Origin: Aquihabitans sp. G128 | GTDB taxonomy: Bacteria > Actinomycetota > Acidimicrobiia > Acidimicrobiales > Iamiaceae | Length of the DNA: 64,000 nt | Direction: 5' to 3' | Assembly: GCF_019048865.1 (NCBI RefSeq) | Contig: NZ_CP077604.1 | Span: 3,038,001-3,102,000 of the forward strand | Part shown: in pieces, positions 11,219 to 33,734 of the stretch | Layout of the letters: every line of letters starts with the position of its first letter | Position numbering within the stretch: position 1 is the first letter of the stretch | Notes under the pieces: model-generated | Database searches by the model: none | Told to the model about the DNA's origin: nothing | What the model saw: only the letters and a program-made list of their open reading frames with translations | Program-made: the position numbers and the translations under genes

Positions 11219-11341
11219 GAACTTGTGGGCCCTCGCTGCTGTTTTCGGCGCCCTCGGCCCACAAGTTCGAGAGGGACCGACCCGACCCGGTGAACTTGTG
11301 GGCCCACGCTGCTGTTTTCGGCGCCCTCGGCCCACAAGTTC
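11219..11341. repeat. Intergenic hairpin repeat, copies 1 and 2
   Basis: Copy 1 has 13-base perfect arms GAACTTGTGGGCC (11219-11231) and GGCCCACAAGTTC (11256-11268). Copy 2 repeats them at 11292-11304 and 11329-11341, a 73-base period. Both enclose the conserved core GCTGCTGTTTTCGGCG. They lie in the 216-base gap between the PAS-GGDEF gene end and the SRPBCC gene. Confidence 0.9.
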
Positions 11342-11370
11342 GAGGGAGGGGGTTGCCCGACCCGGGGCGG

Positions 11371-12771
11371 TCAGTCGCGGGCGAGGTCGTCGGTGGGTGA
11401 CGGGGTGCGCTCGACGGACTTGTGGGCGTACATGGCCTGGTCGGCCCGGTGCACCAGGACCTCGGGGCGCTCGCCGCTGCGGGCCGTGGCGGCGCCGAAC
11501 GACGCCGAGACCGAGACCAGGGCCGGGCCGGCGTCGAACTCGAGCTCCATGGCCTGGCGGACCCGGGCGAGGACCTCGTCCAGCTCGCTCGGGTCGTCGA
11601 CCACGACGCAGAACTCGTCACCGGCGTAGCGGGCCACCATGACGTCGCCCGGGCCGGCGGCTCGGGCCAGGCGGTCGGCGATCTCGCGGAGCACGCGGTC
11701 GCCGGCCACGTGGCCGTGCTCGTCGTTCACGGCCTTGAACCGGTCGAGGTCGACGAAGATCAGGCCGGGGAGCCGGCCGATGGCGAACAGCTCGTTGAGC
11801 CGGGCGACCATGGCGTCGCGGTTGCACAGCCCGGTGAGCCCGTCGTGGTCCACCCGGTGGCGAAGCTCGGACTCGGCGCGCCGGCGGTCGCTGACGTCTC
11901 GCCCGATCGCTCGGATGACCCCGGCCTCGAGGTCGGGCAGGAGGTCGACCTCCAGCCACACCTGGTGCCCGTCCCGGTGCACGAGGCGCAGCTCGACGAG
12001 CTGGTTGCCCTCGCGCCGGTACAGGTCCACGTCGACGTCGCCGAAGATCGGCTCGCCCGGCGCCAGCTTCGAGGTGCGGTCCAGGCCGACGAGCTCCTCC
12101 GGCGCATACCCGAGGATCGCCTGCGACGCCGGGTTCACCGCCCGGACGCGCCCGTCGAGCCCGAAGGTCACCACCAGGTCCCGGGACGCGGTGAACACCG
12201 CCTCGGCGGCTCGACGCTGCTCGTTGGCCTCACGGACGAGCATGCCGGCGAAGGAGCCGACCAGCAGGAAGACGACCACGCGGAAGCCGGCGGCGACGGC
12301 GGGCAGGTCGATCCCCAACCGGTGGTGCACGTCGATGGACCACGCCGCCGAGGCTGCGCCCGCCACCGCGCCGCCGATGATCCCGCCCAGCCGGTCCCAG
12401 CGGGCGGCGGCCTGGACCATCATCAGCAGCGGGAGGAACTGCACGGCGTCGCCCGGGTTGCTGCGGTGGCTGACCATGATCAGCGCTGCGGTGGCCACGT
12501 CGCCCACGATGCTCGTCCACACCACGGGGGTGGCGAACCGGCCGGCGTCCTCCGCCCTCGTGGCCAGCTCCACCCACGCACAGGTCAGCGCCAGCACCAC
12601 CACCGCCGCCGCGCTCAGGGCCCGCGAGCTCCCCGGGTACAGGAAGACCTGGGCGGCCGCCGGCACCAGGCTGACCAGGCGGAGGTGCTGGATGGTGCGC
12701 TCGGCGTGGCGGGAGGCGCGGTGCTCGAGCAAGCGTCGACGCCGCTCAACCCCACCCACGTCGCGCGCCAT
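11371..12771 (-). CDS. Membrane PAS-GGDEF diguanylate cyclase
   Basis: A 466-residue protein with about five to six hydrophobic helices in residues 28-190, a PAS domain (ASRDLVVTFGLDGRVRAVNPASQAILGY, roughly 205-320) and a C-terminal GGDEF domain. The active-site loop reads YAGDEF (near residue 384), a variant with Ala for the first Gly that is usually active. DLDRFKAVND carries the metal-binding Asp. It should make cyclic di-GMP from GTP in response to a membrane or cytosolic signal. ATG at 12771 is preceded by GAGGGG. It is divergent from the DapB-like gene. Confidence 0.9.
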   Translation of the reverse strand: MARDVGGVERRRRLLEHRASRHAERTIQHLRLVSLVPAAAQVFLYPGSSRALSAAAVVVLALTCAWVELATRAEDAGRFATPVVWTSIVGDVATAALIMVSHRSNPGDAVQFLPLLMMVQAAARWDRLGGIIGGAVAGAASAAWSIDVHHRLGIDLPAVAAGFRVVVFLLVGSFAGMLVREANEQRRAAEAVFTASRDLVVTFGLDGRVRAVNPASQAILGYAPEELVGLDRTSKLAPGEPIFGDVDVDLYRREGNQLVELRLVHRDGHQVWLEVDLLPDLEAGVIRAIGRDVSDRRRAESELRHRVDHDGLTGLCNRDAMVARLNELFAIGRLPGLIFVDLDRFKAVNDEHGHVAGDRVLREIADRLARAAGPGDVMVARYAGDEFCVVVDDPSELDEVLARVRQAMELEFDAGPALVSVSASFGAATARSGERPEVLVHRADQAMYAHKSVERTPSPTDDLARD

Positions 12772-12981
12772 CGCGCACCCCTCTTCCCGCGGCCCGCGGC
12801 GACCGCCACCCCGAACCGCTGTTGTTGTAGCCGAAAACACCTGCGTCGGACATGAGCCGAACGGCCCTCGTCCATCTGGGCGACCGCTGGCTCGGCGTGG
12901 CTGCGGGCCGGTGTTGGAGCGCCAAGACCGGTCGCTCACCCGTGGCCGAGCGGGGCCTCAGCGCCGAGCGGCTCCTGCCGG

Positions 12982-12995
12982 TAGAACACGTTCCA
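12982..12995. promoter_or_regulatory. KstR-like operator overlapping the DapB-like start
   Basis: TAGAACACGTTCCA matches TNNAACNNGTTNNA at every defined position. Its last base is the A of the ATG at 12995, so a bound repressor would block initiation directly. Confidence 0.6.
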
Positions 12996-14053
12996 TGACC
13001 TACCGCGTGATCCAGTGGGCGACCGGCGGCGTCGGCCGCGCCGCCATCGAGGGCATCCTCGCCCACCCCGAGCTCGAGCTGGCCGGGGCATGGGTGCACG
13101 GTGAGGCCAAGGACGGCCTCGACGTCGGCGAGCTGATCGGCATCGACCCCATCGGCGTGCTGGCCACCCGCGACGTCGACGCGCTGCTCGCCCTCGGCGC
13201 CGACTGCGTGCTCTACAGCCCGCTGATGGCCGACCCCGCCGAACTGCGCCGCATCCTCGCTGCGGGTGTCGACGTGGTGACGCCCCTGGGTTGGTTCTTC
13301 CCGCCCAGCCCCGAGCGCGAGGAGCTCGACGCCCTGTGCAAGGAGTCCGGCAGCACGCTGCACGGCACGGGCATCCACCCCGGCGGCATCACGGAGCGCT
13401 TCCCGCTCATGGTCTCGGCGCTCAGCGGGTCGATCACCCACGTGCGCTCCGAGGAGTTCTCCGACATCCGCACCTACGGCGCGCCCGACGTCATCAGCGA
13501 CTGGATGCTGTTCGGCAAGACGCCCGAGGAGGGGCGGGCCAGCATCATGCCGGCCATGCTCGCCGGCGGGTTCGGCCAGTCGATCTGGATGATCGCCCAC
13601 GAGCTGGGCCTCACCCTCGACGCCGAGCTGCGCACCACCCACGAGATGGCGGTGGCCACCGAGCCGATCGACTCCCCGATCGGGCCCATCCAGCCCGGCA
13701 CCGTCGCCGCCCAGAGGTTCCGCTGGGAGGGGCTGGTCGACGGCGAGCCCGTCATCACCGCGGCGGTCAACTGGTTCATGGGCGACGAGCACCTGGACCC
13801 GCCGTGGACCTTCGGACCTGAGGGAGAGCGCTTCGAGGTGGAGGTCACCGGCGACCCCGGCACCCACGTGACCTTCCACGGCCTGCACCCCGAGAGCATC
13901 GCCGCCGGCCTGGCCCGCAACCCCGGCATCGTCGCCACCGCCCTGCACGCCGTGAATGCCATCCCCTACGTCTGCGCCGCCGAGCCCGGCGTGCAGACGT
14001 ACCTCGACCTTCCCCTGGTGGCCGGTCGGGCGGCGCCGCACCTGCTGCGGTAG
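12995..14053 (+). CDS. DapB-like NAD(P)-dependent oxidoreductase
   Basis: A 352-residue protein of the dihydrodipicolinate reductase/amine dehydrogenase-like family. VIQWATGGVGRAAIEGILAHPELEL is the Rossmann nucleotide site at the N-terminus, and HGTGIHPGGITERFP marks the substrate region. It is longer than true DapB (about 270), so lysine synthesis is not implied. The closest functional group is the actinobacterial NAD(P)H-dependent oxidoreductases often found in lipid or sterol catabolism clusters. A KstR-like site overlaps the ATG, and the start is fixed by the Rossmann strand at residue 3. Confidence 0.8.
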   Translation: MTYRVIQWATGGVGRAAIEGILAHPELELAGAWVHGEAKDGLDVGELIGIDPIGVLATRDVDALLALGADCVLYSPLMADPAELRRILAAGVDVVTPLGWFFPPSPEREELDALCKESGSTLHGTGIHPGGITERFPLMVSALSGSITHVRSEEFSDIRTYGAPDVISDWMLFGKTPEEGRASIMPAMLAGGFGQSIWMIAHELGLTLDAELRTTHEMAVATEPIDSPIGPIQPGTVAAQRFRWEGLVDGEPVITAAVNWFMGDEHLDPPWTFGPEGERFEVEVTGDPGTHVTFHGLHPESIAAGLARNPGIVATALHAVNAIPYVCAAEPGVQTYLDLPLVAGRAAPHLLR

Positions 14054-14098
14054 GGGCAGGCCCTCGGGCCGATGCGGGGTGAACCGGTGTGGCGGCGG

Positions 14099-14104
14099 TA
14101 GCCT
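14099..14104 (+). promoter_or_regulatory. Possible -10 box TAGCCT of infA
   Basis: It would give a leader of about 105 bases before ATG 14218. No -35 box is evident. Confidence 0.35.
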
Positions 14105-14217
14105 TGACCTTCGCTGCTCGTGCCTCCAAGGGGTGCGGCCACCGGACCGCTTCGAGTGGGGAGACCCGCTGCCGGCCGGAGATCGATGCGGCGCAGACGA
14201 GAACCTGAGGACACGCG

Positions 14218-14442
14218 ATGACGAAAGCCAAAGACGACGTACTGGTCATGGAAGGCACGGCCGAGGAAGCCCTCAAAGGCGGCCACTTCCGGATCTCCCT
14301 CGACAACGGGCACGTGGTGCTCGGCCACCTCGGCGGTCGCCTCCGCCGGAACCGCATCCGCATCCTCCCGGGTGACCGGGTGCAGGTGGAGCTCTCCACC
14401 TACGACCTCAAGCGCGGCCGCATCACCTACCGCTACAAGTGA
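14218..14442 (+). CDS. infA: Translation initiation factor IF-1 (isolated copy)
   Basis: A 74-residue OB-fold protein with the IF-1 pattern: [10 protein letters not shown] at the start, [17 protein letters not shown] in the middle, and [28 protein letters not shown]-type ending. IF-1 binds the ribosomal A site during initiation. The usual actinobacterial infA sits with map, rpmJ and rpsM, but here it stands alone between a DapB-like gene and a DUF2071 gene. Some conserved positions are changed ([10 protein letters not shown] instead of the common AHISGKMRKN), so this may be a second, specialised copy. Two hairpins follow the stop. Confidence 0.92.
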
Positions 14443-14445
14443 CCC

Positions 14446-14505
14446 CTCGGCCTCACGGCCGAGCCACGAAGACCTGACGAGACCCCGGGCTGGTACCGGG
14501 GTCTC
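14446..14505 (+). terminator. Double hairpin terminator of infA
   Basis: CTCGGCC/GGCCGAG (14446-14452 and 14457-14463, 4-base loop) lies three bases after the stop. It is followed by a ten-pair stem GAGACCCCGG/CCGGGGTCTC (14479-14488 and 14496-14505, 7-base loop). There is no T-run, as is common in GC-rich actinobacteria. Confidence 0.75.
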
Positions 14506-14532
14506 TGCGCGTCTGCGGGCGGGCGCCCGGGC

Positions 14533-15321
14533 CTACGGGGCCGGCCGGGCCGGGCCCGGCGGGACGACCACCCGCTTCGGCAGGCCGATGCGCACGTCGA
14601 CGCCGGGCGACCAGAGGACCACGGGGTCGGCGTCCGGCGCCGGGAGGCCGGCGGCGGCGAGCAGGGTCTCGTCGCACTCGAGCAACTCGGCGCGGTGCAC
14701 GGCCCAGGGCGGGTGGTCCACCGCCGCCCACATGAGGCGGGAGCCGAACCGGGTGCCGAGCGCCCAGCGGGCGGTGAGGAAGTGCTCGAAGGCGCTGACC
14801 TCGCCGTCGTCGACCAGCTCACCGATGCGCACCCGCACCCGGCTGGACGCCTCGCCCCGGGGCCAGCGCCGCTTCGAGGTGTAGGTCATCACGTCGCCGT
14901 CGCGCTCGATGGCCATCTTCGCCCAGCAGTACGGCAACCGGTACGAGACCCGAGCCACCAGCGCCGGCACCAGCCGGTTGATGTCGAGGCTGCAGAACCA
15001 CACCCCGCGCCGGCCCTGCGGGTCGACCAGGTAGGTGCGGACGTTGGTCTCGGGGAACGTCGAGAGCGGGCCGAAGGGCGGCACGTGGGGCAGGCGGATG
15101 CGCCGCATGTGGAACGGCAGGACGCCCACCCACGCGCTGCCCTCGAACGTGTCGACCCGGTAGCCGGCGGGCAGCAGGGCCTGCACGACCTCGGGGTCGT
15201 AGCGCCAGTGGATGGACGTGAGGTCGTGCCAGCCCTGGAGCATGATCGGCCGGCGGACGGCGGTGGGGCACCACGCGGTGACCGCTTCGGGCTGCACCTC
15301 GCCACCTGCTCGTTGGGCCAT
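14533..15321 (-). CDS. DUF2071 (YqjF-like) protein
   Basis: A 262-residue protein of the DUF2071/YqjF group, related to the acetoacetate decarboxylase fold. Diagnostic pieces are QGWHDLTSIHWRYDPEVVQALLPAGYRVDTFEG, WVGVLPFHMRRIRLP and GPLSTFPETNVRTYLVD. The function of the family is not established. ATG at 15321 follows a TACCGT box by six bases. The gene is divergent from the epimerase, and a KstR-like palindrome lies between them. Confidence 0.82.
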   Translation of the reverse strand: MAQRAGGEVQPEAVTAWCPTAVRRPIMLQGWHDLTSIHWRYDPEVVQALLPAGYRVDTFEGSAWVGVLPFHMRRIRLPHVPPFGPLSTFPETNVRTYLVDPQGRRGVWFCSLDINRLVPALVARVSYRLPYCWAKMAIERDGDVMTYTSKRRWPRGEASSRVRVRIGELVDDGEVSAFEHFLTARWALGTRFGSRLMWAAVDHPPWAVHRAELLECDETLLAAAGLPAPDADPVVLWSPGVDVRIGLPKRVVVPPGPARPAP

Positions 15322-15327
15322 GGGTCG

Positions 15328-15333
15328 ACGGTA
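15328..15333 (-). promoter_or_regulatory. -10 box TACCGT of the DUF2071 gene
   Basis: Six bases before ATG 15321. Confidence 0.55.
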
Positions 15334-15369
15334 CCGGCGCCCGGACCGGCACGGCGGTGTCCACCGAAC

Positions 15370-15383
15370 TAGAACGTGTTCTC
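15370..15383. promoter_or_regulatory. KstR-like operator before the epimerase gene
   Basis: TAGAACGTGTTCTC, containing the 12-base dyad AGAACGTGTTCT, matches the KstR motif except at the last base. It lies 31 bases before the GTG start at 15414 and 49 bases from the start of the divergent DUF2071 gene, so it could control both. Confidence 0.6.
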
Positions 15384-15413
15384 GTTCTGGGTTTCGACGA
15401 GAGGCAGATCCAA

Positions 15414-16328
15414 GTGACGCTCGAGGGCAAGCGCATCGTGGTGACCGGAGCGACCGGGCAGGTGGCCGGGCCGCTGGCCGAGTCGCTCGCCGCCGCCGGC
15501 AACGAGGTCATCGCCGCGGCGCGGTTCTCCGATGCGGCCGCCAAGGAGCGGCTCGAGTCAGCCGGGGTCACCTGCGCCACCGTCGACCTCCAGAACGGCG
15601 ACCTCTCCGCGCTGCCCCGCGAGGGCGTCGACGCCGTCCTCAACTTCGCCGTCTCCAAGACCCAGCGCTGGGACATCGACCTGCGCGTCACCGCCGAGGC
15701 CCCCGGCGACCTCATGGCCTGGTGCCGTCCCGAGCGGTTCCTGCACTGCTCAACCACCGGCGTCTACAAGCCCAAGGGCCACGAGCCCATCACCGAGAAG
15801 GACGCGTTGGGCGACAACCACGCCGTCCTCATGCCCACGTACTCGATCGCCAAGATCGCCGCCGAGACCGTGGTGCGCTTCGCGTCCCGGCAGTTCGGCG
15901 TGCCCACCACCATCGCCCGGCTCAACGTGCCCTACGGCGGCCCGGCCGGCGGCTGGCCGCTGTTCCACCTGCTGATGATGCAGGGCGGCATGGCCATCCC
16001 CGTCCACGCCGACGCCCCCAGCACCTACTGCCCCATCCACCAGGACGACATCGACGCCTCGGTCCCCGCCCTGCTCGACGCCGCCTCGCTCGACCCCACC
16101 GTCGTGAACTGGGGCGGCTCCGAGGCGGTCAGCGTCGAGGAGTGGTGCACCTACCTCGGCGACCTCACCGGCATCGAGCCGACCTTCGAGACCAGCGCCG
16201 ACACCCTGGAGAGCGTCATCGTCGACACCACCAAGATGGCGTCGATCACCGGCCCCACCACCGTCGGCTGGCAGGACGGCTTCCGCCGCCTCGTCGAGGC
16301 CCACGACCCGTCCCTCCTCGTCGGCTGA
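15414..16328 (+). CDS. NAD-dependent epimerase/dehydratase (extended SDR)
   Basis: A 304-residue extended SDR. The nucleotide site is VTGATGQVAGP near residue 10, and CSTTGVYKP and MPTYSIAKIAAE provide the Ser-Tyr-Lys active site (YSIAK). The C-terminal half (PIHQDDIDASVPALLDAASLDPTVVNWGG) is the usual substrate domain. The substrate is unknown: sugars, or the 3-beta-hydroxysteroids handled by related SDRs. GTG at 15414 is chosen because GAGAGG stands at the right distance and the Rossmann strand follows directly. An in-frame GTG at 15357 lies upstream of the KstR-like site. Confidence 0.82.
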   Translation: MTLEGKRIVVTGATGQVAGPLAESLAAAGNEVIAAARFSDAAAKERLESAGVTCATVDLQNGDLSALPREGVDAVLNFAVSKTQRWDIDLRVTAEAPGDLMAWCRPERFLHCSTTGVYKPKGHEPITEKDALGDNHAVLMPTYSIAKIAAETVVRFASRQFGVPTTIARLNVPYGGPAGGWPLFHLLMMQGGMAIPVHADAPSTYCPIHQDDIDASVPALLDAASLDPTVVNWGGSEAVSVEEWCTYLGDLTGIEPTFETSADTLESVIVDTTKMASITGPTTVGWQDGFRRLVEAHDPSLLVG

Positions 16329-16359
16329 CCCCAGGAGCGCCCCACCCCCGACCCCAGGA

Positions 16360-16406
16360 ACTTGTCGCAGTTGGCCGACGCATCGGTCGACAAGTGCAAC
16401 AAGTTG
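16360..16406. repeat. Intergenic hairpin (AACTTGTCGCA type)
   Basis: AACTTGTCGCA at 16360-16370 pairs with TGCAACAAGTT at 16396-16406, one mismatch in eleven, 25-base loop. It lies between converging genes and shares its arm with the hairpin at 46294-46342. Confidence 0.7.
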
Positions 16407-16434
16407 GTGGTCTGGGTGGAGGGCGAGCCGAGGT

Positions 16435-17847
16435 CTAGGAGTCGAAGCCGAGGCCGAGGCGGTCGAGGGTGCGGAGCCAGAGGTTGCGGCGGCCCTGGCG
16501 CTCGTCGGCGCGGGCGAGGGACCAGCGGGTGGCCTGGATGCCGACGCTGGCCAGGGGCTCGGGCGGGAACGGCACCGGCTTGGTGCGGACCATCTCCAGC
16601 TCGGTGCGCTCGGTGGGCCGGCCGGCCAGCAGGTCGAGCATGACCTGGGCGCCGAAGCGGGTGGCGCCGACGCCGAGGCCGGTGAAGCCGGCGGCGTAGG
16701 CCACGTCCCCGCCGTGCGCGGTGCCGAAGAAGGCGCAGAAGCGGGTGCTGGCGTCGATGGGACCGCCCCAGGCGTGGGTGAACCGCAGGCCCTCCAGCTG
16801 GGGGAAGGTGTCGAAGAACTGGCGGGCGAGCAGGTCGGACGTGGCGGGGCGGTGGTCGTAGGCAGCGCGGACGCGGCCGCCGAAGTGGTAGATCGCGTCG
16901 TAGCCGCCCCACAGGATCCGGTCGTCGTCGGTGAGCCGGTAGTAGTGGAACCGGTTGGCGGAGTCGCCGATGCCCTGGCGGTTGGCCCACCCGATGGCCC
17001 GCCGCTGCTCGGCCGACAGGGGCTCGGTCATGAGGGCGTGGTCGTAGACCGGGATGGTGTGGAGCCGGGTCCGCTTCACCAGCGACGGGAACACGTTGGT
17101 GCCCAGCGCCACCTGCCGGGCCCGGACCGCGCCGCGCTCGGCGCGCAGCACCAGCCCACGGTCGGCCCGGGTGCCGTGGTCGCGCGACAGGCCGTCGACC
17201 CGGGTGTGCTCGAACACCCGCACGCCCACGCGCTCGCACGCCTCGGCCAGCCCCCAGGCCAGCCGGGCCGGGTCGACCAGGGCGGTGCCGCCTCGCTCCC
17301 ACACGCCGGCCCGGTAGGTAGGCGACGCCACCTCGGCCTGCACGGCCTCCCGGTCGAGGAACTGGAGGTCGTCGCGGCCGTCGGCCCAGTCCCGCAGCTC
17401 GGCCACCTGGTGGTCCTCGGTGGCGACGGTGAGCTCGCCGGTGCGCTCGAAGGAGCAGTCGATCTCGTACCGGTCGAGCGTGGCACCGATCTGGTCGAGG
17501 TTGTCGTGGCCGAGGCGATCGAGCGTGGGGTACTCGTCCGGCCACCGCTCCAAGCCGTTGGCCTCGCCGTGGGTGAGGCTGGCGGCGCAGAAGCCGCCGT
17601 TGCGACCCGAGGCCGCCCACCCGATCCGGTCACCCTCGACCAGCACCACCGTGCGGTCGGGGTCGCGCTCCTTGGCGAGCAGCGCGGTCCACAGGCCGCT
17701 GTAGCCGCCGCCCACCACCGCGAGGTCGGCCGTGACCTCGCCCACCAGCGGCGGTCGGGCGGGTGGGCGGCCGGGCGAGTCGAGCCAGTACGACGTGGGC
17801 CGAGCGCCGCGCAGGGCCTCGTGCACCTCCCCACCCGGGCGTCGCAT
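16435..17847 (-). CDS. FAD-dependent oxidoreductase (D-amino-acid-oxidase fold)
   Basis: A 470-residue DAO-family flavoprotein. DLAVVGGGYSGLWTALLAKERDP is the FAD-binding GxGxxG region near residue 40, GRNGGF is the second conserved block, and GFTGLGVGATRFGAQVMLDLL is the C-terminal FAD contact. These match gamma-glutamylputrescine oxidase and other amine oxidases. The substrate is probably a secondary amine or amino acid. Pyrimidines precede the ATG at 17847, so no Shine-Dalgarno site exists. A TACCCT box six bases upstream indicates a leaderless mRNA, which fixes the start. Confidence 0.85.
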   Translation of the reverse strand: MRRPGGEVHEALRGARPTSYWLDSPGRPPARPPLVGEVTADLAVVGGGYSGLWTALLAKERDPDRTVVLVEGDRIGWAASGRNGGFCAASLTHGEANGLERWPDEYPTLDRLGHDNLDQIGATLDRYEIDCSFERTGELTVATEDHQVAELRDWADGRDDLQFLDREAVQAEVASPTYRAGVWERGGTALVDPARLAWGLAEACERVGVRVFEHTRVDGLSRDHGTRADRGLVLRAERGAVRARQVALGTNVFPSLVKRTRLHTIPVYDHALMTEPLSAEQRRAIGWANRQGIGDSANRFHYYRLTDDDRILWGGYDAIYHFGGRVRAAYDHRPATSDLLARQFFDTFPQLEGLRFTHAWGGPIDASTRFCAFFGTAHGGDVAYAAGFTGLGVGATRFGAQVMLDLLAGRPTERTELEMVRTKPVPFPPEPLASVGIQATRWSLARADERQGRRNLWLRTLDRLGLGFDS

Positions 17848-17853
17848 GGGGGG

Positions 17854-17859
17854 AGGGTA
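17854..17859 (-). promoter_or_regulatory. -10 box TACCCT of the FAD oxidoreductase gene
   Basis: It is separated from the ATG by six cytosines, and no ribosome site is possible. Confidence 0.6.
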
Positions 17860-18017
17860 CTGCCGACCTCGGAGCCCGATCGGCGACGGACGACCCGCCG
17901 AACCGGGCGGCGCACGAGGCGCCACCAGGGGTCGGGCCATCCGGTCACCCGTCCGGCGCCGTACGCTTCCCAGCACTGGGGCCAGCTCCTCGGCCTCGAC
18001 ACGAAAGCGAGCACGCC

Positions 18018-18500
18018 GTGACCAACCTCTCCGACTTCTCCGCCAAGGCCATCGACGGCACGGAGAAGGACCTCTCCGAGTACGCCGGCAAGGCCGTGCT
18101 GGTGGTGAACACCGCGTCCAAGTGCGGCTTCACGCCGCAGTACAAGGGCCTCGAGGAGATCTACAAGAAGTACGAGGACCAGGGCCTCGTCGTCCTCGGC
18201 TTCCCGTGCGACCAGTTCGGCCACCAGGAGCCGGGCACCGAGGACGAGATCCAGGAGTTCTGCGAGGTCAACTTCGGCGTGACCTTCCCCCTCTTCGCCA
18301 AGGTCGACGTGAACGGCGACGACGCCCACCCGCTCTACAAGTGGCTCAAGGAGGAGAAGGGCGGGGCCATCGGGTCGAAGATCAAGTGGAACTTCACCAA
18401 GTTCCTGGTGGGCAAGGACGGCGTCCCGATCAAGCGCTACGCCTCCACCACCAAGCCGGAGAAGATCACCTCCGACATCGAGAAGGCCCTCGAGGCCTGA
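18018..18500 (+). CDS. Glutathione peroxidase family (thiol peroxidase)
   Basis: A 160-residue GPx-fold peroxidase. The peroxidatic Cys36 is in NTASKCGFTPQY, Gln is in GFPCDQFGHQEPG, and Trp-Asn in IKWNFTKFLV completes the tetrad. It has Cys, not selenocysteine. A further Cys (EFCEVNFG) is where the resolving Cys of thioredoxin-dependent members lies, so it probably reduces peroxides with thioredoxin in the cytoplasm. The start is GTG 18018. Confidence 0.93.
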   Translation: MTNLSDFSAKAIDGTEKDLSEYAGKAVLVVNTASKCGFTPQYKGLEEIYKKYEDQGLVVLGFPCDQFGHQEPGTEDEIQEFCEVNFGVTFPLFAKVDVNGDDAHPLYKWLKEEKGGAIGSKIKWNFTKFLVGKDGVPIKRYASTTKPEKITSDIEKALEA

Positions 18501-18552
18501 CCTTCGCCTCGCGCGGCAGCTGACCGGCTGATCGCTTCGGCGGACCGGAGCC

Positions 18553-20004
<1,452 letters not shown>

Positions 20005-20143
20005 CTCGCTCCTCGATCCTGGAGGGCGACCGGCGGACCGACGCCCGTCGAACGGCCGGAAGCTACCCGCCGGTGCCGACGGCCAGTCAGCGCTGCTGGT
20101 CGGGGCCCCCACGCGGGGCCGGGACCGGTTCGGCGCCGTGCGC

Positions 20144-20896: not shown

Positions 20897-20904
20897 GGCG
20901 GCCC

Positions 20905-20910
20905 ACGCTA
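20905..20910 (-). promoter_or_regulatory. -10 box TAGCGT of the GntR gene
   Basis: It stands eight bases before ATG 20896. Confidence 0.45.
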
Positions 20911-21007: not shown

Positions 21008-21011
21008 CACG

Positions 21012-23976: not shown

Positions 23977-26979
<3,003 letters not shown>

Positions 26980-26981
26980 CG

Positions 26982-27587
26982 ATGGCCGACGCGGGCGTGG
27001 CTGCCGCCGCCGGTGCGACCGGGCTGGGCGACCGTGGTCGCGAGCCTGACGAGCGCCCGGCCGTCGGCCCGGGGGACGAGCCTGCTCGCCGCTCCCGGAG
27101 CGGTCCCGACCCCGGCTCGGTCGCCGACGAGCGTCCGCCCCGCCTGCTGGTGGTGCACCACACCCCGTCGCCCGCGCTCGACGCCGTGCTGCGCTCCGTG
27201 GTCGACGGCGCCTCGGCCCCGGAGCTGGCCGCCGTCGAGGTCGTGGTCCGCCCGGCGCTGTCGGCATCGGTGAGCGACGTGCTCGCCGCCGACGCCTACG
27301 TGCTGGGCACCCCGGCCAACCTCGGCTACCTGTCGGGCGCCCTCAAGCACTTCTTCGACACGATCTACTACCCGTGCCTCCAGGCCACCCAGCGCCGCCC
27401 GTACGCGCTCTACGTCCACGGCAACGACGACGTCGAGGGCGCGGTGCGCGGCACCGAGCGCATCGTGACCGGCCTCGGCTGGCGTGCGGTGCGCGACCCG
27501 CTCCGCCTCACCGGCGCCCCGTCCCCCGCCGACCTCGAGTCCGCCTGGGACCTCGGCGCCACCGTCGCCGCCACCCTCCTCCCCTGA
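26982..27587 (+). CDS. Flavodoxin-like / NAD(P)H-dependent FMN reductase fold protein
   Basis: A 201-residue protein. After a disordered Arg/Pro/Asp-rich N-terminus of about 52 residues comes a flavodoxin fold: LLVVHHTPSPALDAVL is the phosphate-binding strand-loop, and AYVLGTPANLGYLSGALKHFFDTIYYPC is the flavin-contact loop typical of WrbA/FMN-reductase relatives. Electron donor and acceptor are unknown. It starts two bases after the glyQS stop, so it is in that operon. The first ATG may be too far upstream: the conserved fold begins at about residue 53. Confidence 0.72.
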   Translation: MADAGVAAAAGATGLGDRGREPDERPAVGPGDEPARRSRSGPDPGSVADERPPRLLVVHHTPSPALDAVLRSVVDGASAPELAAVEVVVRPALSASVSDVLAADAYVLGTPANLGYLSGALKHFFDTIYYPCLQATQRRPYALYVHGNDDVEGAVRGTERIVTGLGWRAVRDPLRLTGAPSPADLESAWDLGATVAATLLP

Positions 27588-27650
27588 CCTGCCGCGCCCG
27601 GCCCCGACGACACCCCCGCAGCCTCGACCTGCGGGCCCCAGACCACCCTC

Positions 27651-27772
27651 GAACTTGTGGGCGCAGACCGCCGAAAACAGCAGCCTCGGCCCACAAGTTC
27701 GATCGAGGGGGTCGACTCCTCCACAACTTGTGGGCCCAGAGCGCCGAAGACGGCGGTGTCAGCCCACAAGTT
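27651..27772. repeat. Intergenic hairpin repeat, copies 3 and 4
   Basis: Copy 3: arms GAACTTGTGGGC (27651-27662) and GCCCACAAGTTC (27689-27700). Its core CGCCGAAAACAGCAGC is the reverse complement of the core in copies 1 and 2, so it is inverted. Copy 4: AACTTGTGGGC (27725-27735) and GCCCACAAGTT (27762-27772), core GCGCCGAAGACGGCGG. The period is 74 bases. The pair occupies most of the 279-base gap after the flavodoxin-like gene. Confidence 0.88.
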
Positions 27773-27853
27773 CCGCCGGGGGGATGCGCCCCGGCGGTGG
27801 AGCGGGTTGGGCGAGGCGAGGTAGAGGCGGGTCGCCGGGGGGTGGGGCGGCCG

Positions 27854-27859
27854 TAGCCT
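27854..27859 (+). promoter_or_regulatory. -10 box TAGCCT of the DAC-domain gene
   Basis: Spacer of seven bases to ATG 27867. Confidence 0.55.
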
Positions 27860-27866
27860 GCGGGGC

Positions 27867-28859
27867 ATGGGGATGCGCCGGCCGTCGACCGAGAACCAGC
27901 TGCGGCGGCTGGTCGAGGAGCTGAGCGAGGTCGGGCTGCACCTGGACGGCTCGGCGCCGTGGCACGAGGTCGCCATCGCCGAGCTGGACTACGCCCTGCG
28001 GCCCGCCGTGCACGAGCGGCGGGTGCCGAGCTACGGCGCCGTGGTGGGGCCGACCACGCCGTCGGCCACGTGGAGCGACCGGACGGAGCTGGGCATGAGC
28101 CTGCGACCGGTCGACGGGACGCCGGTGGAGCGAGCCCGGCCCTACGCCGACGGCATCGTGAGCTGGCTGCTGCGCCGCACCGACGGCTGCGACGACTGGG
28201 CCGTCTTCGACCGACCGGCCGGCTCCGAGCGGGACCTGGTGGTGCTGGCCGAGGCGTTCGGCGCGTGCATCGTGCAGCGCCACCCCTCCGGCGTGGTGCG
28301 GCTGGCCGGCGATTTCGGCGTGTACCGCTGGGACGGCCTGGCCTGGCACCACGAGCCGCTGGTCTCGGCCTGGCTCGACGCGGTGAGCGCCTGCTCGGTC
28401 GCTGGCGACCGCGACGTGCTCGAGACCCTGCTGGAGTTCGCCGTGCACGACCTGGGCGCCCGGGGCATCGGCGCCACGCTCGTCTACCGGCCCGACGATG
28501 CGCTGCCCACCAGCTTCGAGGACCGCCTGCCGATCCCGCCCCCGCTGAACATCCGCAAGGCCGCCGACCTGGCGCCGCTGCGCCACGTCCTGGCCCAGGT
28601 CGACGGCGCCACCCTGTTCGACGAGGGCGGCGTCCTGCGCCGCATCGGCGTACGGCTGGTGCCCACCCCCGAGGCCGAAGCCGAGGTCGACGGCTACCGC
28701 GGCACCCGACACACCGCCGGCCGCCGCTACAGCTACGACGACCCGTCGGCCACCGTCATCGTCGTGTCCGAGGACGGACCGGTCACCGTGCTGCGCAAGG
28801 GCTCGCTGCTCGGCGCCTCGGCCATGATCGACGAAGAGGGCGACGAGCCCGACGACTGA
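27867..28859 (+). CDS. Diadenylate-cyclase (DisA_N) domain protein
   Basis: A 330-residue protein. Residues 1-205 show no family I recognise. The C-terminal part has the DAC-domain marks: DGA at 246-248 (AQVDGATLFDEGG), the GTRH motif at 279-282 followed by Thr (GTRHTAGRR), and a closing beta strand VIVVSEDGPVTVLRKG. DAC domains join two ATP into cyclic di-AMP, a potassium and osmotic second messenger. In characterised enzymes the second motif is RHR, so RHT here could weaken or alter activity. No membrane helix is present, unlike CdaA. The mRNA is probably leaderless. Confidence 0.75.
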   Translation: MGMRRPSTENQLRRLVEELSEVGLHLDGSAPWHEVAIAELDYALRPAVHERRVPSYGAVVGPTTPSATWSDRTELGMSLRPVDGTPVERARPYADGIVSWLLRRTDGCDDWAVFDRPAGSERDLVVLAEAFGACIVQRHPSGVVRLAGDFGVYRWDGLAWHHEPLVSAWLDAVSACSVAGDRDVLETLLEFAVHDLGARGIGATLVYRPDDALPTSFEDRLPIPPPLNIRKAADLAPLRHVLAQVDGATLFDEGGVLRRIGVRLVPTPEAEAEVDGYRGTRHTAGRRYSYDDPSATVIVVSEDGPVTVLRKGSLLGASAMIDEEGDEPDD

Positions 28860-28908
28860 GCCGTCCGGTCGTCGCCCGCGCATCGGGCGCTCGGCCTTCC
28901 CATCGCCT

Positions 28909-29040
28909 GATCCGTTCTGTACGGAGATCTCCCTGTCTCACGACACCGATCCCCGACAGAACCGGCGATCCCACCGCCCGATCCGTTCTGTACGGAGAAC
29001 TCGCTCTCCCACGACACGGATCCCCGACAGAACCGGCGGG
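28909..29040. repeat. 71-base tandem repeat with weak dyad
   Basis: Unit 1 starts GATCCGTTCTGTACGGAGA at 28909 and unit 2 repeats it at 28980. Both end in GATCCCCGACAGAACCGGCG. Within each, CCGTTCTGT can pair with ACAGAACCGG (one bulge). The array lies between the converging ends of the DAC-domain and P450 genes. Confidence 0.88.
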
Positions 29041-29067
29041 AGGGCGGGCTGAGGCGAGAGCGCTCGC

Positions 29068-30250
29068 TCAGAAGGCGAGCGGGAGGGTGCGGGGACCGCG
29101 GACCTGGCCGGTGGACCAGCGGACGGCGTCGGGGTCAGCGAGCGTGAAGGTGGGGACCCGGGCGAGGAAGCGCTCGACGGCAACGGTGACCTCCATGCGA
29201 GCCAGGTTCGACCCCAGGCAGCGGTGGATGCCGAGGCCGAAGGCGACGTGGCGGTTGGGCTGGCGGTCGAGGATCACCCGGTCCGGCTCGGCGAACGCCT
29301 CGGGGTCGCGGTTCGCCGCCGGGAACGGGAGCAGCAGCGGGTCGCCGCGGTGCACGGGGCACCCGGCCAGCTCGGCGTCGCGGGTGACCTCGCGGGCCAT
29401 GGTGACCGGCGCGTAGGCCCGCAGCAGCTCCTCGATGGCGGTGGGCAGCAGCTCGGGCTCGGCCCGGAGCCGGGCCTGGTCCTCGGGGTGCCCGGCGAGG
29501 TGCCAGAGGCTGGCGCCGATGGCGCTCCACGTGGTGTCGATGCCGGCCACCAGCAGCAGGAGCGACCCTCCGAACACCTCGGCCTCGTCCAGAGGTCGGC
29601 CGTCGAGCTCGGCGGTGAGCAGGAACGAGATGAGGTCGTCGCCCATGCCGTCGTGCGTCCGGCGCTCGATCTGCGCCACCAGCCACTCGCGGAAGCCGAA
29701 CAGGCCGGCGGCGGCCGACTCGATGCTGGTGGGGCCGAGCTCGAGCGTGTCGCGGATCCAGCCGCGGAACAGGTCGCCGTCGCCCTGCTCGACGCCGAGC
29801 ATGGTGCCGATGACGTCGACGGGGATGTGCTGGGCGTAGGCCACTGCGGCGTCGACCGAGCCGGTCCCCTCGAAGCCGTCGATCAGCTCCTCGGCGTGGG
29901 CCACCACCTGGGCGCGCAGGGCCTCGATGCGCCGGGGCGAGAAGAACGGCAGCAGCAACTTGCGGAACCCGGTGTGGTGCGGCGGGTCCGACGAGATGGG
30001 CGGCACGATGATGCTGAAGTCGCTCATGGCGCCGAACTCGGCCACCAGGGGGGCTGCGCGACGAGTACGTCTCGGTGTCGCGGGCCACGGCCTCGATCTC
30101 GGCCATCCGGGTGGGGACCAGCATCCCCCGCAACCGCTCGGAGCGGGCCACGGGGCACGACTCCCGGAGCTCGGCCCAGATGGGGAACGGGTCCTGGGCG
30201 TAGGCGGGGTCGAAGTGGTCGAACCCGGTGGCCCAGTCGGTCTCCTCCAT
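29068..30250 (-). CDS. Cytochrome P450 (one frameshift)
   Basis: A full bacterial P450 once one base is removed: 1182 bases, 393 residues. LVAGIDTTWSA is a canonical I-helix, EELLRAY has the E-x-x-R pair, and the haem loop is FGLGIHRCLGSNLAR. The N-terminus WATGFDHFDPAYAQDPFPIWAELRES is in another frame. The break is in the six-G run 30048-30053, where five would keep the frame. The P450 should hydroxylate a small lipid or aromatic, substrate unknown. A strong dyad at 30318-30350 lies upstream. It follows the orphan MgsA-C gene on the same strand. Confidence 0.82.
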
Positions 30251-30308
30251 CTCGGCGCCTTCCCCTCGAACCGTGCACCGTCGTGCCCCGACGGCACGGC
30301 GAGCGGCC

Positions 30309-30314
30309 AACCTA
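30309..30314 (-). promoter_or_regulatory. -10 box TAGGTT of the second P450
   Basis: About 59 bases before ATG 30250, so this mRNA has a leader. The dyad at 30318-30350 abuts it. Confidence 0.45.
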
Positions 30315-30317
30315 CGG

Positions 30318-30350
30318 TTGCACCGATCCATGGGTCAACGATCGGTGCAA
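30318..30350. promoter_or_regulatory. 11-base perfect operator-like dyad
   Basis: TTGCACCGATC (30318-30328) and GATCGGTGCAA (30340-30350) are perfect inverted repeats with an 11-base spacer. They lie directly upstream of the TAGGTT box, over the expected -35 area, as for a repressor of the TetR type (inference). Confidence 0.7.
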
Positions 30351-30434
30351 CACCGGGCGCCGGGCAGGCGAGCGGGGCGGCCGAGCCGGCGGCCCCGGCT
30401 CCGGGCAGCGACCGCGCTCGGCTGCGCCGGTGCC

Positions 30435-31046
30435 TCAGCGCTGGCCGTCGGCCGGGGGGTCGAGCTCGAAGTAGAGGTCGTCGAGCCGGTGGTGCCAGGT
30501 GCGGTCTCGGCCTGCCACCTCGGGGTGCACCGCGGTGCCGGTGGTGAACCAGTCGTACATGGTGCGGCCTTCGACCTGACCCCGCTCGGTGTGGATGTCG
30601 ACGGCCTCGGCGGGGATGTCGACCACCCGGTCCTCGTGCAGGACCACCTGCATGATCTCGCCCACCGTGGGGTCCTTGGGCACCGTCGCCAGGTAGCCGG
30701 CCGCCTGGGCGGCCATCTCCAGGCGCTCGTAGGTGGCGTGGCCGAACAGCTCGGCGCTGCCGTGCAGGGCGGCCACCACGGCGATGGCCTCGGGCGTGCC
30801 CAGGCCGATGTCCTCGGCGGCGATCACCCGCAGCCGCTGCCAGAGCATGTGCTCGTGGGCCTCGTCGGTGCGGGCCAGCTCCATGGCGGCGCGGACCGAC
30901 TGCTCCACCCGGCCCATGCGGACGTGCTTGTGCAGGGCCGAGCGGACCAGGTCCGAGGCCAGCCCGTTGACGGTCTGGCACCCGGCGAAGGGGTCGAGGG
31001 AGAAGTGCGGGATGGGGCGCTCCCACCCGTCGGCGTCAGCGGTCAC
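30435..31046 (-). CDS. Stand-alone MgsA/RarA C-terminal-domain protein
   Basis: A 203-residue protein resembling only the C-terminal part of the replication-recombination ATPase MgsA/RarA: VRSALHKHVRMGRVEQSVRAAMELART, then RLRVIAAEDIGLGTPEA and AAGYLATVPKD. The AAA+ ATPase portion is missing, with no Walker motifs. In MgsA this region forms the tetramer and contacts SSB and DNA. The role of the free domain is unknown. Its GTG start overlaps the stop of the preceding P450 by four bases, so it is in the P450 operon, which is odd for a DNA-repair-derived domain. Confidence 0.7.
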   Translation of the reverse strand: MTADADGWERPIPHFSLDPFAGCQTVNGLASDLVRSALHKHVRMGRVEQSVRAAMELARTDEAHEHMLWQRLRVIAAEDIGLGTPEAIAVVAALHGSAELFGHATYERLEMAAQAAGYLATVPKDPTVGEIMQVVLHEDRVVDIPAEAVDIHTERGQVEGRTMYDWFTTGTAVHPEVAGRDRTWHHRLDDLYFELDPPADGQR

Positions 31047-32236
31047 GAGACCTCCAGGTCGAGCGGCAGGCGGTGGACCAGGCCCGCGGCGTTGATCGAC
31101 AACGATGCCCCGTCGGCCACCGATGCGCCCGGCCAGCGGCGGGTCACGCCGCCCACCATCTCCTGCAGCTCCATCTTCCCGAGGGCGGCGCCGAGGCAGT
31201 AGTGCCGGCCGGCGCCGAAGGCGAGCTGGGGCTTGGCCAGCGGACGGCGCACGTCCAGGGCGTGGGGGTCGTCGTACACGTCGGGGTCGCAGTGCGCGGC
31301 CGCGATGCGGACGGTGACGAACTCGCCGGCCGCCACCGCGGTGCCGTCGATGGTGGTGGGCGCCACCGCGTACTTGATGGTGTGGCGGATGGCGGGCTGG
31401 AAGCGGCCGCACTCCTCCACGGCCTGGGCCACCGCGCCGGGGTCGTCGTACACGTGCGTCCACGCATCGGGGTGCTCGGCCAGGGTGTGCAGCGCCAGCC
31501 CGGCGGTGTTGGCGGTGTTGTCGACCGAGGCGCTGAGCAGCTCCTCGAGCAGGCAGAAGGCGTCGAGCTCGTCGATGGTGCCGGCCGCCGAGGCCTCGGC
31601 CAGCACGGTGGCCAGGTCATCGGCGGGGTGGGCCCGCTTGTGGGCCAGCAGGGCGTGGGTGTACTCGGCCAGCTCGGCCTTGGCGGTGCGCACCGGTTCG
31701 ACCATGGCCTCCGTGGCGGTGAAGACGAGCAGCAGGTCCTTGGACCAGTCGGCCAGCTGGCCGTCGTCGCCCTCGCCGGCGCCCACCATCCAGCAGAAGA
31801 GGCGGGCGGGCACCACGTCGACGAGCTCGCCCACCAGCTCGAGCGGCGCGGCCGGGTCGTGGGCGGCGAGCTGCTGGTCAACGAGGTCACGGGTGCGATC
31901 ACGCAGGGCGGCGATGCGCCGAGCGGTGAACCAGGGGCTGACCACCCGTCGCAGCCGCGAGTGTTCCGTGCCCTCGGAGTCGGTGAGCGTGCGGCCCGGC
32001 GTGCCCCACAGCGGACCGAAGCCGAGCTGCTCGAGCAGCGGGTCGATGCCGGGGATCAGGGCTTGGTCGTGGAACGCCGCGTCGCAGCCGGCGTAGGTGA
32101 TGGCCGACCAGCCGATGGGGTCGACCACCAGGCGCTGCTCCGGGCGGAGGGCGTCGTAGACCGCGTGCGGGTCGGCCAGGAACGCAGGGTCACGGGGGTC
32201 GAGCTCGAAGGTGCCGTCGACGGCCAGGGCGCTCAC
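31043..32236 (-). CDS. Cytochrome P450 with atypical I-helix
   Basis: A 397-residue P450. The haem loop FGAGRHYCLGAALGK and the K-helix E-C-G-R pair are present. The I-helix reads ELLSASVDNTANT, so the usual A-G-x-(D/E)-T-T has Ser for Gly and Asn for the first Thr. Oxygen activation may differ, as in P450s that rearrange or decarboxylate. The substrate is unknown. GTG 32236 is the only start in this frame near the N-terminus. It overlaps the stop of a 17-codon ORF upstream. Confidence 0.85.
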   Translation of the reverse strand: MSALAVDGTFELDPRDPAFLADPHAVYDALRPEQRLVVDPIGWSAITYAGCDAAFHDQALIPGIDPLLEQLGFGPLWGTPGRTLTDSEGTEHSRLRRVVSPWFTARRIAALRDRTRDLVDQQLAAHDPAAPLELVGELVDVVPARLFCWMVGAGEGDDGQLADWSKDLLLVFTATEAMVEPVRTAKAELAEYTHALLAHKRAHPADDLATVLAEASAAGTIDELDAFCLLEELLSASVDNTANTAGLALHTLAEHPDAWTHVYDDPGAVAQAVEECGRFQPAIRHTIKYAVAPTTIDGTAVAAGEFVTVRIAAAHCDPDVYDDPHALDVRRPLAKPQLAFGAGRHYCLGAALGKMELQEMVGGVTRRWPGASVADGASLSINAAGLVHRLPLDLEVS

Positions 32237-32286
32237 GGGGCACCGAGCCGGCCGCCCGGCACGGCGGTGGGGTGGTTCCGGATCAT
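32233..32286 (-). CDS. Leader mini-ORF coupled to the P450 (17 aa)
   Basis: ATG at 32284-32286 begins MIRNHPTAVPGGRLGAP, and its TGA overlaps the P450 GTG by four bases (GTGA). A TACGAT box ends six bases before the ATG, so ribosomes probably load on this leaderless peptide and restart at the P450. Confidence 0.55.
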   Translation of the reverse strand: MIRNHPTAVPGGRLGAP

Positions 32287-32292
32287 GCGGCG

Positions 32293-32298
32293 ATCGTA
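32293..32298 (-). promoter_or_regulatory. -10 box TACGAT of the mini-ORF/P450/MgsA-C operon
   Basis: Six bases before ATG 32286. Confidence 0.5.
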
Positions 32299-32366
32299 AG
32301 AACCGCAGGTGCCGGGCGGACCGGCGCCGCCGTGAACGCCGCGTGAACCGCCCGACCGCGCTCGGG

Positions 32367-32699
32367 TCAGGCAGCGGCGGTGAGCGCCGGGCGGGGGCGG
32401 GCCGCCTCCACCAGGGCCGCCACCCGGGTGTGCAGCCAGAGCAGGTCGTGCGTGGGGGCCTCGTGGGCCTCGGCCTCGAACAGGTCGGCCTCGAGCGCCA
32501 CCAGCGCCTGGGCGCCGAAGCGCACCTGGGTGGCCAGCCACCGGCGCCGTCCGCTGGACAGGTTGGCGCCCAGCGGGGCGAGGGCCTTGACGAGCGGCCC
32601 GACCTCGTAGAACCAGGCCTCGATCTCGTCCGGCGAGAAGGCGACGGCCGCGGGGGCCGCCACGAGCGGGCGGGGGTGGTGGAGCGCTGCGGAGGTCAT
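32367..32699 (-). CDS. Hypothetical helical protein
   Basis: A 110-residue protein, mostly helix after an Ala/Pro-rich start. FSPDEIEAWFYEVGPLVKAL, FGAQALVALEADLFEAEAHEAPTHDLLW and VAALVEAARPRP are the main segments. I do not recognise a family. A TACGGT box ends six bases before the ATG at 32699, so it has its own promoter. It ends 80 bases before the P450 leader ORF. Confidence 0.6.
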   Translation of the reverse strand: MTSAALHHPRPLVAAPAAVAFSPDEIEAWFYEVGPLVKALAPLGANLSSGRRRWLATQVRFGAQALVALEADLFEAEAHEAPTHDLLWLHTRVAALVEAARPRPALTAAA

Positions 32700-32705
32700 G
32701 CCCGA

Positions 32706-32711
32706 ACCGTA
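32706..32711 (-). promoter_or_regulatory. -10 box TACGGT of the hypothetical gene
   Basis: Six-base spacer to ATG 32699. Confidence 0.5.
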
Positions 32712-32781
32712 CGGAGGGGGTCTGACAATTTTCCCGGGTGCGGCCGCCTGCCGCCGGGCCGGGGGCCCGGCGACCCTGGGC

Positions 32782-33018
32782 TCAGTCGGTGGCGGGGTCG
32801 GGGGCCTTGAAGGTGTCGACGAAGGCGGTGGCGCCGTTGATGACGGCCTTGCCGGCGGTCTTCCCCAGCTCGCTGCCGAGCAGGCCGCCCAGGACGGCGC
32901 CGGCGAACGGGCCCACCACGGGGATGGGCACCACGACGGCGCCGATCTTGGCCCCGGTGAACAGGCCGCTGCCCAACCCCGCCACCTGGCCGATGGCTTC
33001 CTTCTCGCGATCTTCCAC
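32782..33018 (-). CDS. Small glycine-zipper membrane protein
   Basis: A 78-residue protein with a charged start (MEDREKEAIG), then a long Gly/Ala/Val stretch in which Gly recurs every four residues (GLGSGLFTGAKIGAVVVPIPVVGPFAGAVLGGLLG). This is a glycine zipper able to pack in membranes. A polar tail follows. Its function is unknown, and such proteins are often stress-related. GTG at 33018 has AAGGAG eight bases upstream. Confidence 0.65.
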   Translation of the reverse strand: MEDREKEAIGQVAGLGSGLFTGAKIGAVVVPIPVVGPFAGAVLGGLLGSELGKTAGKAVINGATAFVDTFKAPDPATD

Positions 33019-33190
33019 GTCCCGCTCCTTCGTGTCGCCGTTCCGAGGGCCAAGTCTGGCCCACCGGCGGCGGCGAGGCCACGGCGGGATCGGGAAAGAT
33101 CCGGCGCCGGTGTCGATCGGGCCACGCCCCGTTCGTGGTCATGGTGCGAGGGCGCAAGGGGCACCCCGCACCCCGACCCGAGGAGCTCCC

Positions 33191-33628
33191 ATGACCGCCA
33201 CCACGATCCCCACCACCACCGTCGACCAGGCACGACCCGCCCGACCCACCGTCGCCAAGGCCGGCCTGCTGGCCGGCGCGGCAGCCGCCATCGCCACCAC
33301 CGCCGTCGCCGCCGCGGCCCGGGCCCTCGACGTGCCGCTCACGGTGGGCGGCGAGGCCATCCCCGTCCTCGGGTTCGGCCAGGTGACCCTGGTCTGCACG
33401 CTGGTCGGCGCCCTGCTGGCTCGCAGCCTCGGGCGCCGGGCCCGCAGCCCTCGCCGCACCTTCGTGCGGACCACCGTCGTGCTGACCGCCCTGAGCCTGG
33501 TGCCCGACCTCACCGCCCAGGCCACCACCGCCACCCGGGCCACGCTGGTGCTGACCCACCTCGTCGCCGCCGCCCTCGTGATCCCCGCGCTGGCCCGCTG
33601 CCTCCCGCTCCAGCGGGTCGCCGCCTGA
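33191..33628 (+). CDS. DUF6069 four-helix membrane protein
   Basis: A 145-residue inner-membrane protein with four hydrophobic helices. The pattern GLLAGAAAAIATTAVAAAARALDVPL, then EAIPVLGFGQVTLVCTLVGALLA and RRTFVRTTVVLTALSLVPDL, matches the actinobacterial DUF6069 group. Function unknown. GAGGAG before the ATG is a clear ribosome site. It converges with the MMPL gene, and a hairpin repeat lies between them. Confidence 0.75.
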   Translation: MTATTIPTTTVDQARPARPTVAKAGLLAGAAAAIATTAVAAAARALDVPLTVGGEAIPVLGFGQVTLVCTLVGALLARSLGRRARSPRRTFVRTTVVLTALSLVPDLTAQATTATRATLVLTHLVAAALVIPALARCLPLQRVAA

Positions 33629-33686
33629 GACCCGATGGCGACCGCCTCGAAGTGGTCGCCCTCGGCCGCGCAGCCCCACCGCGGCG

Positions 33687-33734
33687 AACTTGTGGGCCCA
33701 GAGCGCCCAAAACGGCAGCGTGGGCCCACAAGTT
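33687..33734. repeat. Intergenic hairpin repeat, copy 5
   Basis: Arms AACTTGTGGGCCCA (33687-33700) and TGGGCCCACAAGTT (33721-33734) pair over 14 bases. The core GCGCCCAAAACGGCAGCG is a diverged form of the core in copies 1-3. It is a single copy between two converging genes. Confidence 0.88.

Follow-up and report, generated by a model that had tools for sequence, protein, structure and literature searches.

A 64,000-nucleotide stretch of Aquihabitans sp. G128 (the window; positions 3038001-3102000 of contig G000:C1, the single contig of the 4.94 Mb genome G000) contains five copies of a dispersed palindrome family, here called F1, which has 85 distinct copies in 45 clusters across the genome. 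Each unit is 48 bp long, with 11-bp arms (AACTTGTGGGC/GCCCACAAGTT) around a 26-bp core. The arms are constrained and species-specific, the element has a polarity and a preferred tandem period, and its sites are empty in relatives. We tentatively favor the reading that F1 copies are genome-specific hairpins resembling REPINs (repetitive extragenic palindromic [REP] doublets forming hairpins), with arms recognized in trans by a protein outside the Y1/RAYT (REP-associated tyrosine transposase) group, probably as a folded single strand. A trans-acting protein of this kind would recognize the 11-bp arms, in which an outer tag common to several families (AACTT or GTTCT) would be combined with six bases specific to the family. 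That the protein reads the folded strand of the element is probable, since the mismatches conserved inside the hairpin give it a polarity. Arms would stay intact through this recognition, which would also lead to new intergenic copies and to local arrays running in the same direction at a step of about 73 bp. The protein partner, the single-strand recognition and the movement are the three parts of this scheme that we infer.

The initial annotation of the window had placed five intergenic hairpins in it, and all five are present:
11220..11267, plus strand: F1 hairpin copy 1, with 11-bp arms and a 26-bp core; polarity by the mismatch rule
11293..11340, plus strand: F1 hairpin copy 2, 73 bp after copy 1
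27652..27699, no strand given: F1 hairpin copy 3, with an AAAA loop; polarity only weakly set
27725..27772, no strand given: F1 hairpin copy 4, 73 bp after copy 3; no assigned polarity
33687..33734, minus strand: F1 hairpin copy 5, a single copy between convergent genes

Arms of 11 to 14 bases had been described. The palindromic arms stand, with an invariant part of 11 bp (AACTTGTGGGC), and so do the two tandem pairs, although both have a period of 73 bases rather than 73 and 74. Copy 3 does not have an inverted core as had been thought, since an AAAA loop simply replaces TTTT; that units can lie either way round nevertheless holds, as the polarity set by the mismatches occurs in both directions genome-wide.

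Within the window there are 16 occurrences of ACTTGTGGGC if one mismatch is tolerated, whereas 100 shuffles gave 3.4 +- 1.9 and never as many as 16. The expectation that the arm-plus-core pattern would recur elsewhere was borne out by 83 exact genome-wide matches to ACTTGTGGGC-N{10,40}-GCCCACAAGT, against none for the reversed control. Allowing up to three mismatches (counted over 20 arm bases and one two-fold core position, at fixed length) raised this only to 86 places, with perfect arms in 83 of the 86. The two ends of the contig (G000:C1:5127-8172 and L073) apparently cover the same 50 kb or so, with single-base shifts between them, and raw searches therefore count copies near the ends twice. 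The places at 6627 and 4893979 share at least 100 nt on the left and 50 nt on the right and are alike beyond that apart from single-base shifts; they look like one place seen at the overlapping ends, with a true duplication as the alternative. With one place thus doubled among the 83, there are 82 exact copies and three with one arm mismatch, or 85 in all. These form 14 single, 24 double and six triple clusters and one of five copies.

The F1 arms are nearly invariant, and their cores are not. Across 72 distinct units, the ten inner arm positions show three changes in 1440, while the cores vary. In 85 of 85 copies the 46-bp unit is flanked by an A/T pair, so the arm extends to AACTTGTGGGC and the unit to 48 bp. 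Spacer length was the same in all 86 units listed by the fixed-length scan, and searches of G000 and its relatives that permitted other lengths listed only 46-bp places. F1 therefore shares with REPs and REPINs inverted ends that do not vary and a spacer whose sequence, but not length, does. RNA folding predicted stable hairpins on both strands for eight of eight sequences (z -3.8 to -8.0), and Rfam gave no match within the window at the gathering score.

The two halves of the F1 core pair less often than expected by chance, because C.C mismatches are conserved within them. Ten core positions gave 400 Watson-Crick pairs, compared with 490.7 +- 11.6 when halves were dealt anew. Of 72 oriented units, 53 have C.C at positions 12/35 and 55 have it at 14/33, but the orienting rule itself favors such counts, and the test is therefore the shuffle. 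The conserved mismatches give the element a polarity, which agreed between adjacent copies in all 30 clear pairs of 40, the other 10 being ambiguous. Swapping of halves between adjacent cores was considered and set aside (p 0.20), and the outer flanks of F1 do not pair with each other beyond what composition predicts.

Adjacent copies keep a preferred distance, with 26 of 40 spacings at exactly 73 bp and the remainder between 72 and 116. In these 40 pairs there are 3 arm differences in 880 positions and 97 core differences in 1040, which upholds the suggestion that the arms are kept better than a stem would need. Conservation so far beyond the needs of a stem points to a binding partner, as had also been proposed, and such a partner would act on the arms. 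Where the spacing is 73 bp (26 pairs), flanks of 12 + 12 nt share 14.0 of 24 bases compared with 10.5 between clusters; in the 15 of them with at least three core differences, sharing was 12.3 compared with 9.9. The pattern is consistent with tandem duplication after which the flanks decayed, the cores decayed in part and the arms hardly changed; similar local composition could add to the likeness of the flanks. A five-copy array (L040:7469-7849) consists of nearly identical copies that recur every 83-84 bp, their spacers conserved as well, and is a recent local amplification. Outside complete units, a scan of 701 kb (0.70 Mb of the 4.94 Mb) found a single orphan exact arm, which lies inside a gene; shuffled control 10-mers gave 0-17. 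This arm is at window positions 11418-11427, 78 bp after copy 2, in the PAS/GGDEF gene.

Two sister families occur in the same genome. F3, with arms AACTTYGGGTC, is found at 23 places when as many as three of its 22 arm bases may differ, and 10 of these are perfect. C.C is found at the same positions as in F1, in 14 and 13 of 23 oriented units, so the mismatches in the middle are conserved between F1 and F3 even though arms and loop differ. The F3 middle also under-pairs (89 compared with 101.8 +- 5.7, p 0.012), whereas its arms pair slightly above the dealt expectation (236 compared with 233.3 +- 1.8, p 0.09). Two F3 copies are arrayed with F1 copies in the same polarity, at distances of about 84 and 80 bp when the registers are matched. 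F2, with GTTCTGTCGGG arms and a length of 49 bp, has 12 places in G000 in the union of several searches. Two of these form a tandem pair (GTTCT...AGAAC, 28914-29033) in the window, 1.1 kb from F1 copies 3 and 4:
28914..28962, no strand given: F2 hairpin (GTTCTGTACGG...CCCGACAGAAC, 49 bp), first of the tandem pair
28985..29033, no strand given: F2 hairpin, 71 bp after the first F2 copy

Conservation in relatives had been anticipated, and it was found for the build of the element but not for its letters. Among 60 related genomes, 11 of them of the same genus as G000, none contains exact F1 arms and none exact F2 arms. For five clusters with neighboring genes found in a relative, the syntenic gap held no F1 arm in any of the five stretches. 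Four relatives carry similarly built families, each with arms of its own. G008 has GTTTCTGAGC arms in three copies, including one tandem pair at 91 bp, and G012 has one pair with GTTCTGAGCAC arms. In G003, eight units with GTTCTTCGGGG arms were found in 380 kb, with one mismatch in 176 arm bases and variable cores; three further weak matches (five mismatches) were discarded as likely coding. G014 has both TGGCACGCG arms (42 bp, five units in 420 kb) and GTTCT[CG]GGTAC arms (49 bp, at least six units). Partial samples (52-141 kb) of G004, G009, G010, G011 and G020 contained no recurrent arm family. Two further repeats were noted: a longer block (CTCGTCCCTCGCAGCC ... GGGGGAGACCCCCGGACC) in 4 of 21 sampled stretches of G014 (L103, L127, L129, L144), once beside a TGGCACGCG hairpin, and another palindrome family in the 380 kb of G003, with arms CGTTCTGGCGTAG, at L181:8002, L181:8398 and L189:15339.

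Tandem GTTCT-N39-AGAAC was searched for in 397 genomes of the order, and ten pairs turned up, in G000, G003, G012 and G014; these four genomes belong to one family and three genera. The period was 71-72 bp in 10 of 10 even though 67-77 was allowed, while 392 of the 397 genomes had none and a match in G205 (period 77) looks like chance. AACTT-type tandems were confined to G000 among 24 genomes of the family. Tandem copies mostly step by 71-74 bp across three genera. It is possible, though we give it rather less weight than our reading of F1 itself, that the tagged palindromes of this bacterial family form a superfamily, with arms particular to each genome, kept and spread by a non-Y1 protein that reads the mismatch-bearing folded strand and leaves copies in one direction at 71-74 bp.

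The genomic position of F1 favors gene 3' ends. Gene contexts were taken from a home-made gene caller, with Pfam names for the six neighbors in the window:
10672..11154, minus strand: Polyketide_cyc2, start faces the element
11371..12732, minus strand: PAS + GGDEF domains, end faces the element
26982..27587, plus strand: weak FMN_red, end faces the element
27873..28859, plus strand: DACNK + DAC (DisA-like) domains
33191..33628, plus strand: DUF6069, end faces the element
33749..36187, minus strand: MMPL, end faces the element

That the copies all follow gene ends is correct for the three loci in the window, but genome-wide 9 of the 45 clusters lie in divergent gaps, with one divergent neighbor pair (L041) confirmed by Pfam. 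The other 36 have at least one neighboring gene end (16 convergent and 20 co-directional gaps). Convergent gaps hold 15 of 43 clusters compared with 12.5% of intergenic bases (p 0.0001), or 14 of 33 compared with 19.2% of bases in gaps of up to 350 bp (p 0.0027). In co-directional gaps of that size, 13 of 15 clusters are closer to the gene end (p 0.007), and divergent gaps hold 8 of 43 compared with 30.5% of bases (p 0.10). The REP-like location and build proposed earlier, that of dispersed intergenic palindromes, is supported.

The flanks of F1 share a composition bias in every gene context. Among cluster sides no shorter than 15 nt, 42 of 44 on the left are C-rich and 43 of 43 on the right are G-rich, compared with 30/55 and 30/55 for other hairpins of G000. 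The bias fades within about 100 nt. It is also present on each side in 11 of 12 F3 loci examined and is weaker in F2, where the left is negative in six of nine and the right positive in seven of nine distinct units. Rho loads on C-rich, G-poor RNA, and a stretch of this kind lies upstream in the RNA on the 42/44 and 43/43 cluster sides. F1 could accordingly be a two-way RNA-end element kept by the host, in which RNA from either side meets a C-rich, G-poor stretch and then a hairpin that stops or protects its 3' end and insulates the neighboring genes. The preference for convergent gaps and for the gene-end side of co-directional gaps, the stable folds of both strands and the constraint on arms in place would all suit such a role. 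We nonetheless consider it unlikely. A T-run (at least 5 T in 10 nt) follows the stem at 0 of 170 unit ends, terminator-like sites number 0 at the first window locus, and the same bias is seen between divergent genes. A terminator needs neither the exact arm letters nor the conserved mismatches of F1. One copy also lies downstream of a tRNA-Lys gene that by eye already has its own terminator-like hairpin, which is found in a relative lacking F1 as well. At L044:8312-8390 an F1 copy is directly followed by an apparent 3' part of a tRNA (T-arm, CCA), downstream of an intact tRNA-Lys gene.

A more doubtful explanation is that a species-specific DNA-binding protein binds both arms as a duplex, with F1 serving as an organizer or insulator whose sites lie about seven helical turns apart. 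Exact arms in 82 of 85 copies are compatible with this, as are the spacings between neighbors, which are 73 (about seven turns) for 26 of the 40 adjacent pairs, with others near 84. However, helical phasing of the other spacings (p 0.013 with all counted) is not significant when the five-copy array counts as one (p 0.11), duplex binding has no need for conserved core mismatches or a hairpin apex, and G000 would require two proteins or a loose one for two sister families that differ in their arms.

Least probable is a minimal miniature inverted-repeat transposable element (MITE), with arms that are the ends of a classical transposon and a long autonomous copy elsewhere: insertion sequences have two-part ends, which the constant outer pentamer and variable inner bases resemble, and F1 is dispersed and species-specific and shares with MITEs its shortness, terminal inverted repeats and lack of coding capacity, but at 48 bp it has no known autonomous parent, the single orphan arm in 701 kb lies within a gene, the 71-74 bp step and conserved mismatches are unaccounted for, and no target-site duplication was seen, the dinucleotides beside the arms (two bases compared on each side) tending instead to differ (CG/GC table 19, 18, 15, 1; Fisher p 0.004, with units that are not independent).

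A phage origin of F1 was set aside since its exact pattern has 0 matches in viral_contigs; the one viral match to the tandem GTTCT pattern reads like a coding repeat. In named species genomes, the shorter pattern CTTGTGGGC-N{26,30}-GCCCACAAG is found in 32 stretches, at one place each, with about 18 expected on a rough estimate from equal base frequencies. Thirteen of the 32 were read. In five of those read (Frateuria, Rhodanobacter), TGTAGGAGCC adjoins the match, and these look like GTAG-tagged REPs that share only a motif with F1; the repeats (L016, L025, L033, L005, L026) hold nine F1-arm bases, CTTGTGGGC, apparently by convergence. Six others (Oscillochloris and a Prevotellaceae metagenome-assembled genome) have other symmetric flanks, most with GTAGGGGC or similar. 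Integron attC sites were put aside on an informal comparison, their end boxes not being seen in F1. In the literature listings searched, no title or abstract opening describes such repeats in this bacterial group, though a published account may exist.

A number of observations weigh against recognition and spread of F1 by a non-Y1 protein. No candidate partner was found. The REP-associated tyrosine transposase suggested by the initial annotation was sought with PF01797 (Y1_Tnp), which had no match in G000 or, at E <= 1, in any of the five carrier genomes including G000 (one of the five 79% complete). All-against-all blastp of 334 proteins neighboring F1 (some loci twice) gave no recurrent neighbor, only broad paralogous families, the largest of which includes short-chain dehydrogenase. 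No movement of F1 copies was seen. Nearly all copies are intact and 701 kb held just one lone arm, in contrast to REPs, whose singlets are mostly decaying leftovers of REPINs according to the part of PMC8049555 consulted. Tandem pairs with decayed flanks and intact arms suggest selection in place over recent movement. Movement alone explains neither this constraint nor the flank skew, which keeps the host-function alternatives alive, and the C-left/G-right bias is left unexplained by the reading we favor. Polarity shows only a trend with replication half (p 0.07 for F1 and 0.06 with F3 included).

If our favored reading is correct, there are REPIN-like populations that lack the enzyme family by which such repeats are known to be moved, and the partner could come to light when arm letters are matched to proteins over a few sequenced species. 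Since arms are constant within genomes and different between them, what keeps palindrome populations uniform becomes directly testable. F1 also cautions against taking any hairpin that follows a gene for a terminator; it shares with intrinsic terminators a stable GC-rich hairpin, often near gene ends, but differs from them in having no T-run, in its exact arm letters and in its presence between divergent genes.

F1 resembles several known repeat systems. The CGTC-tagged REPs described in part of PMC3733652 are dispersed palindromes of 20-40 bp without a dedicated transposase, as is F1 in these respects, but F1 units are longer and form same-direction arrays, whereas many REP families have units in opposite orientation; CGTC/GACG is found near at most 14 of 170 F1 unit ends, and an unpaired CGTC tag is thus lacking. 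The E. coli type of REP needs conserved stem mismatches for its transposase, with strand-specific recognition that depends on a mismatch bulge (portion of PMC8266576 consulted). F1 likewise is an imperfect palindrome with conserved mismatches, mostly after genes, but it measures 48 bp compared with 29-37, has no TnpAREP, and shows a GTAG/CTAC tag within 8 nt of either end in 0 of 85 copies. REPINs have invariant ends and a less conserved spacer (excerpt of PMC3116915), and F1 shares with those of Pseudomonas fluorescens SBW25, as far as the excerpt describes them, the invariant inverted ends, less conserved spacer, intergenic dispersal and genome-specific ends. It differs in ends of 11 bp compared with 16, in arrays that run in the same direction, in spacer halves that under-pair with no compensatory changes, and in five carrier genomes without Y1/RAYT. 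Some genomes keep REPINs without a RAYT (section of PMC8049555 consulted), so a missing Y1 alone leaves a relic possible. The idea of a REP palindrome within each arm, formed by pairing of flank and arm, was rejected because the complementary CCCAC occurs in 54 of the 164 distinct flanks and its permutations in 57-68, and the sole hint of one is a small excess in the longest flank-arm match (3.98 compared with 3.84). With no Y1, no GTAG, arms that are not REPs and arrays in one direction, F1 is best described as working like REPINs without being filed as one.

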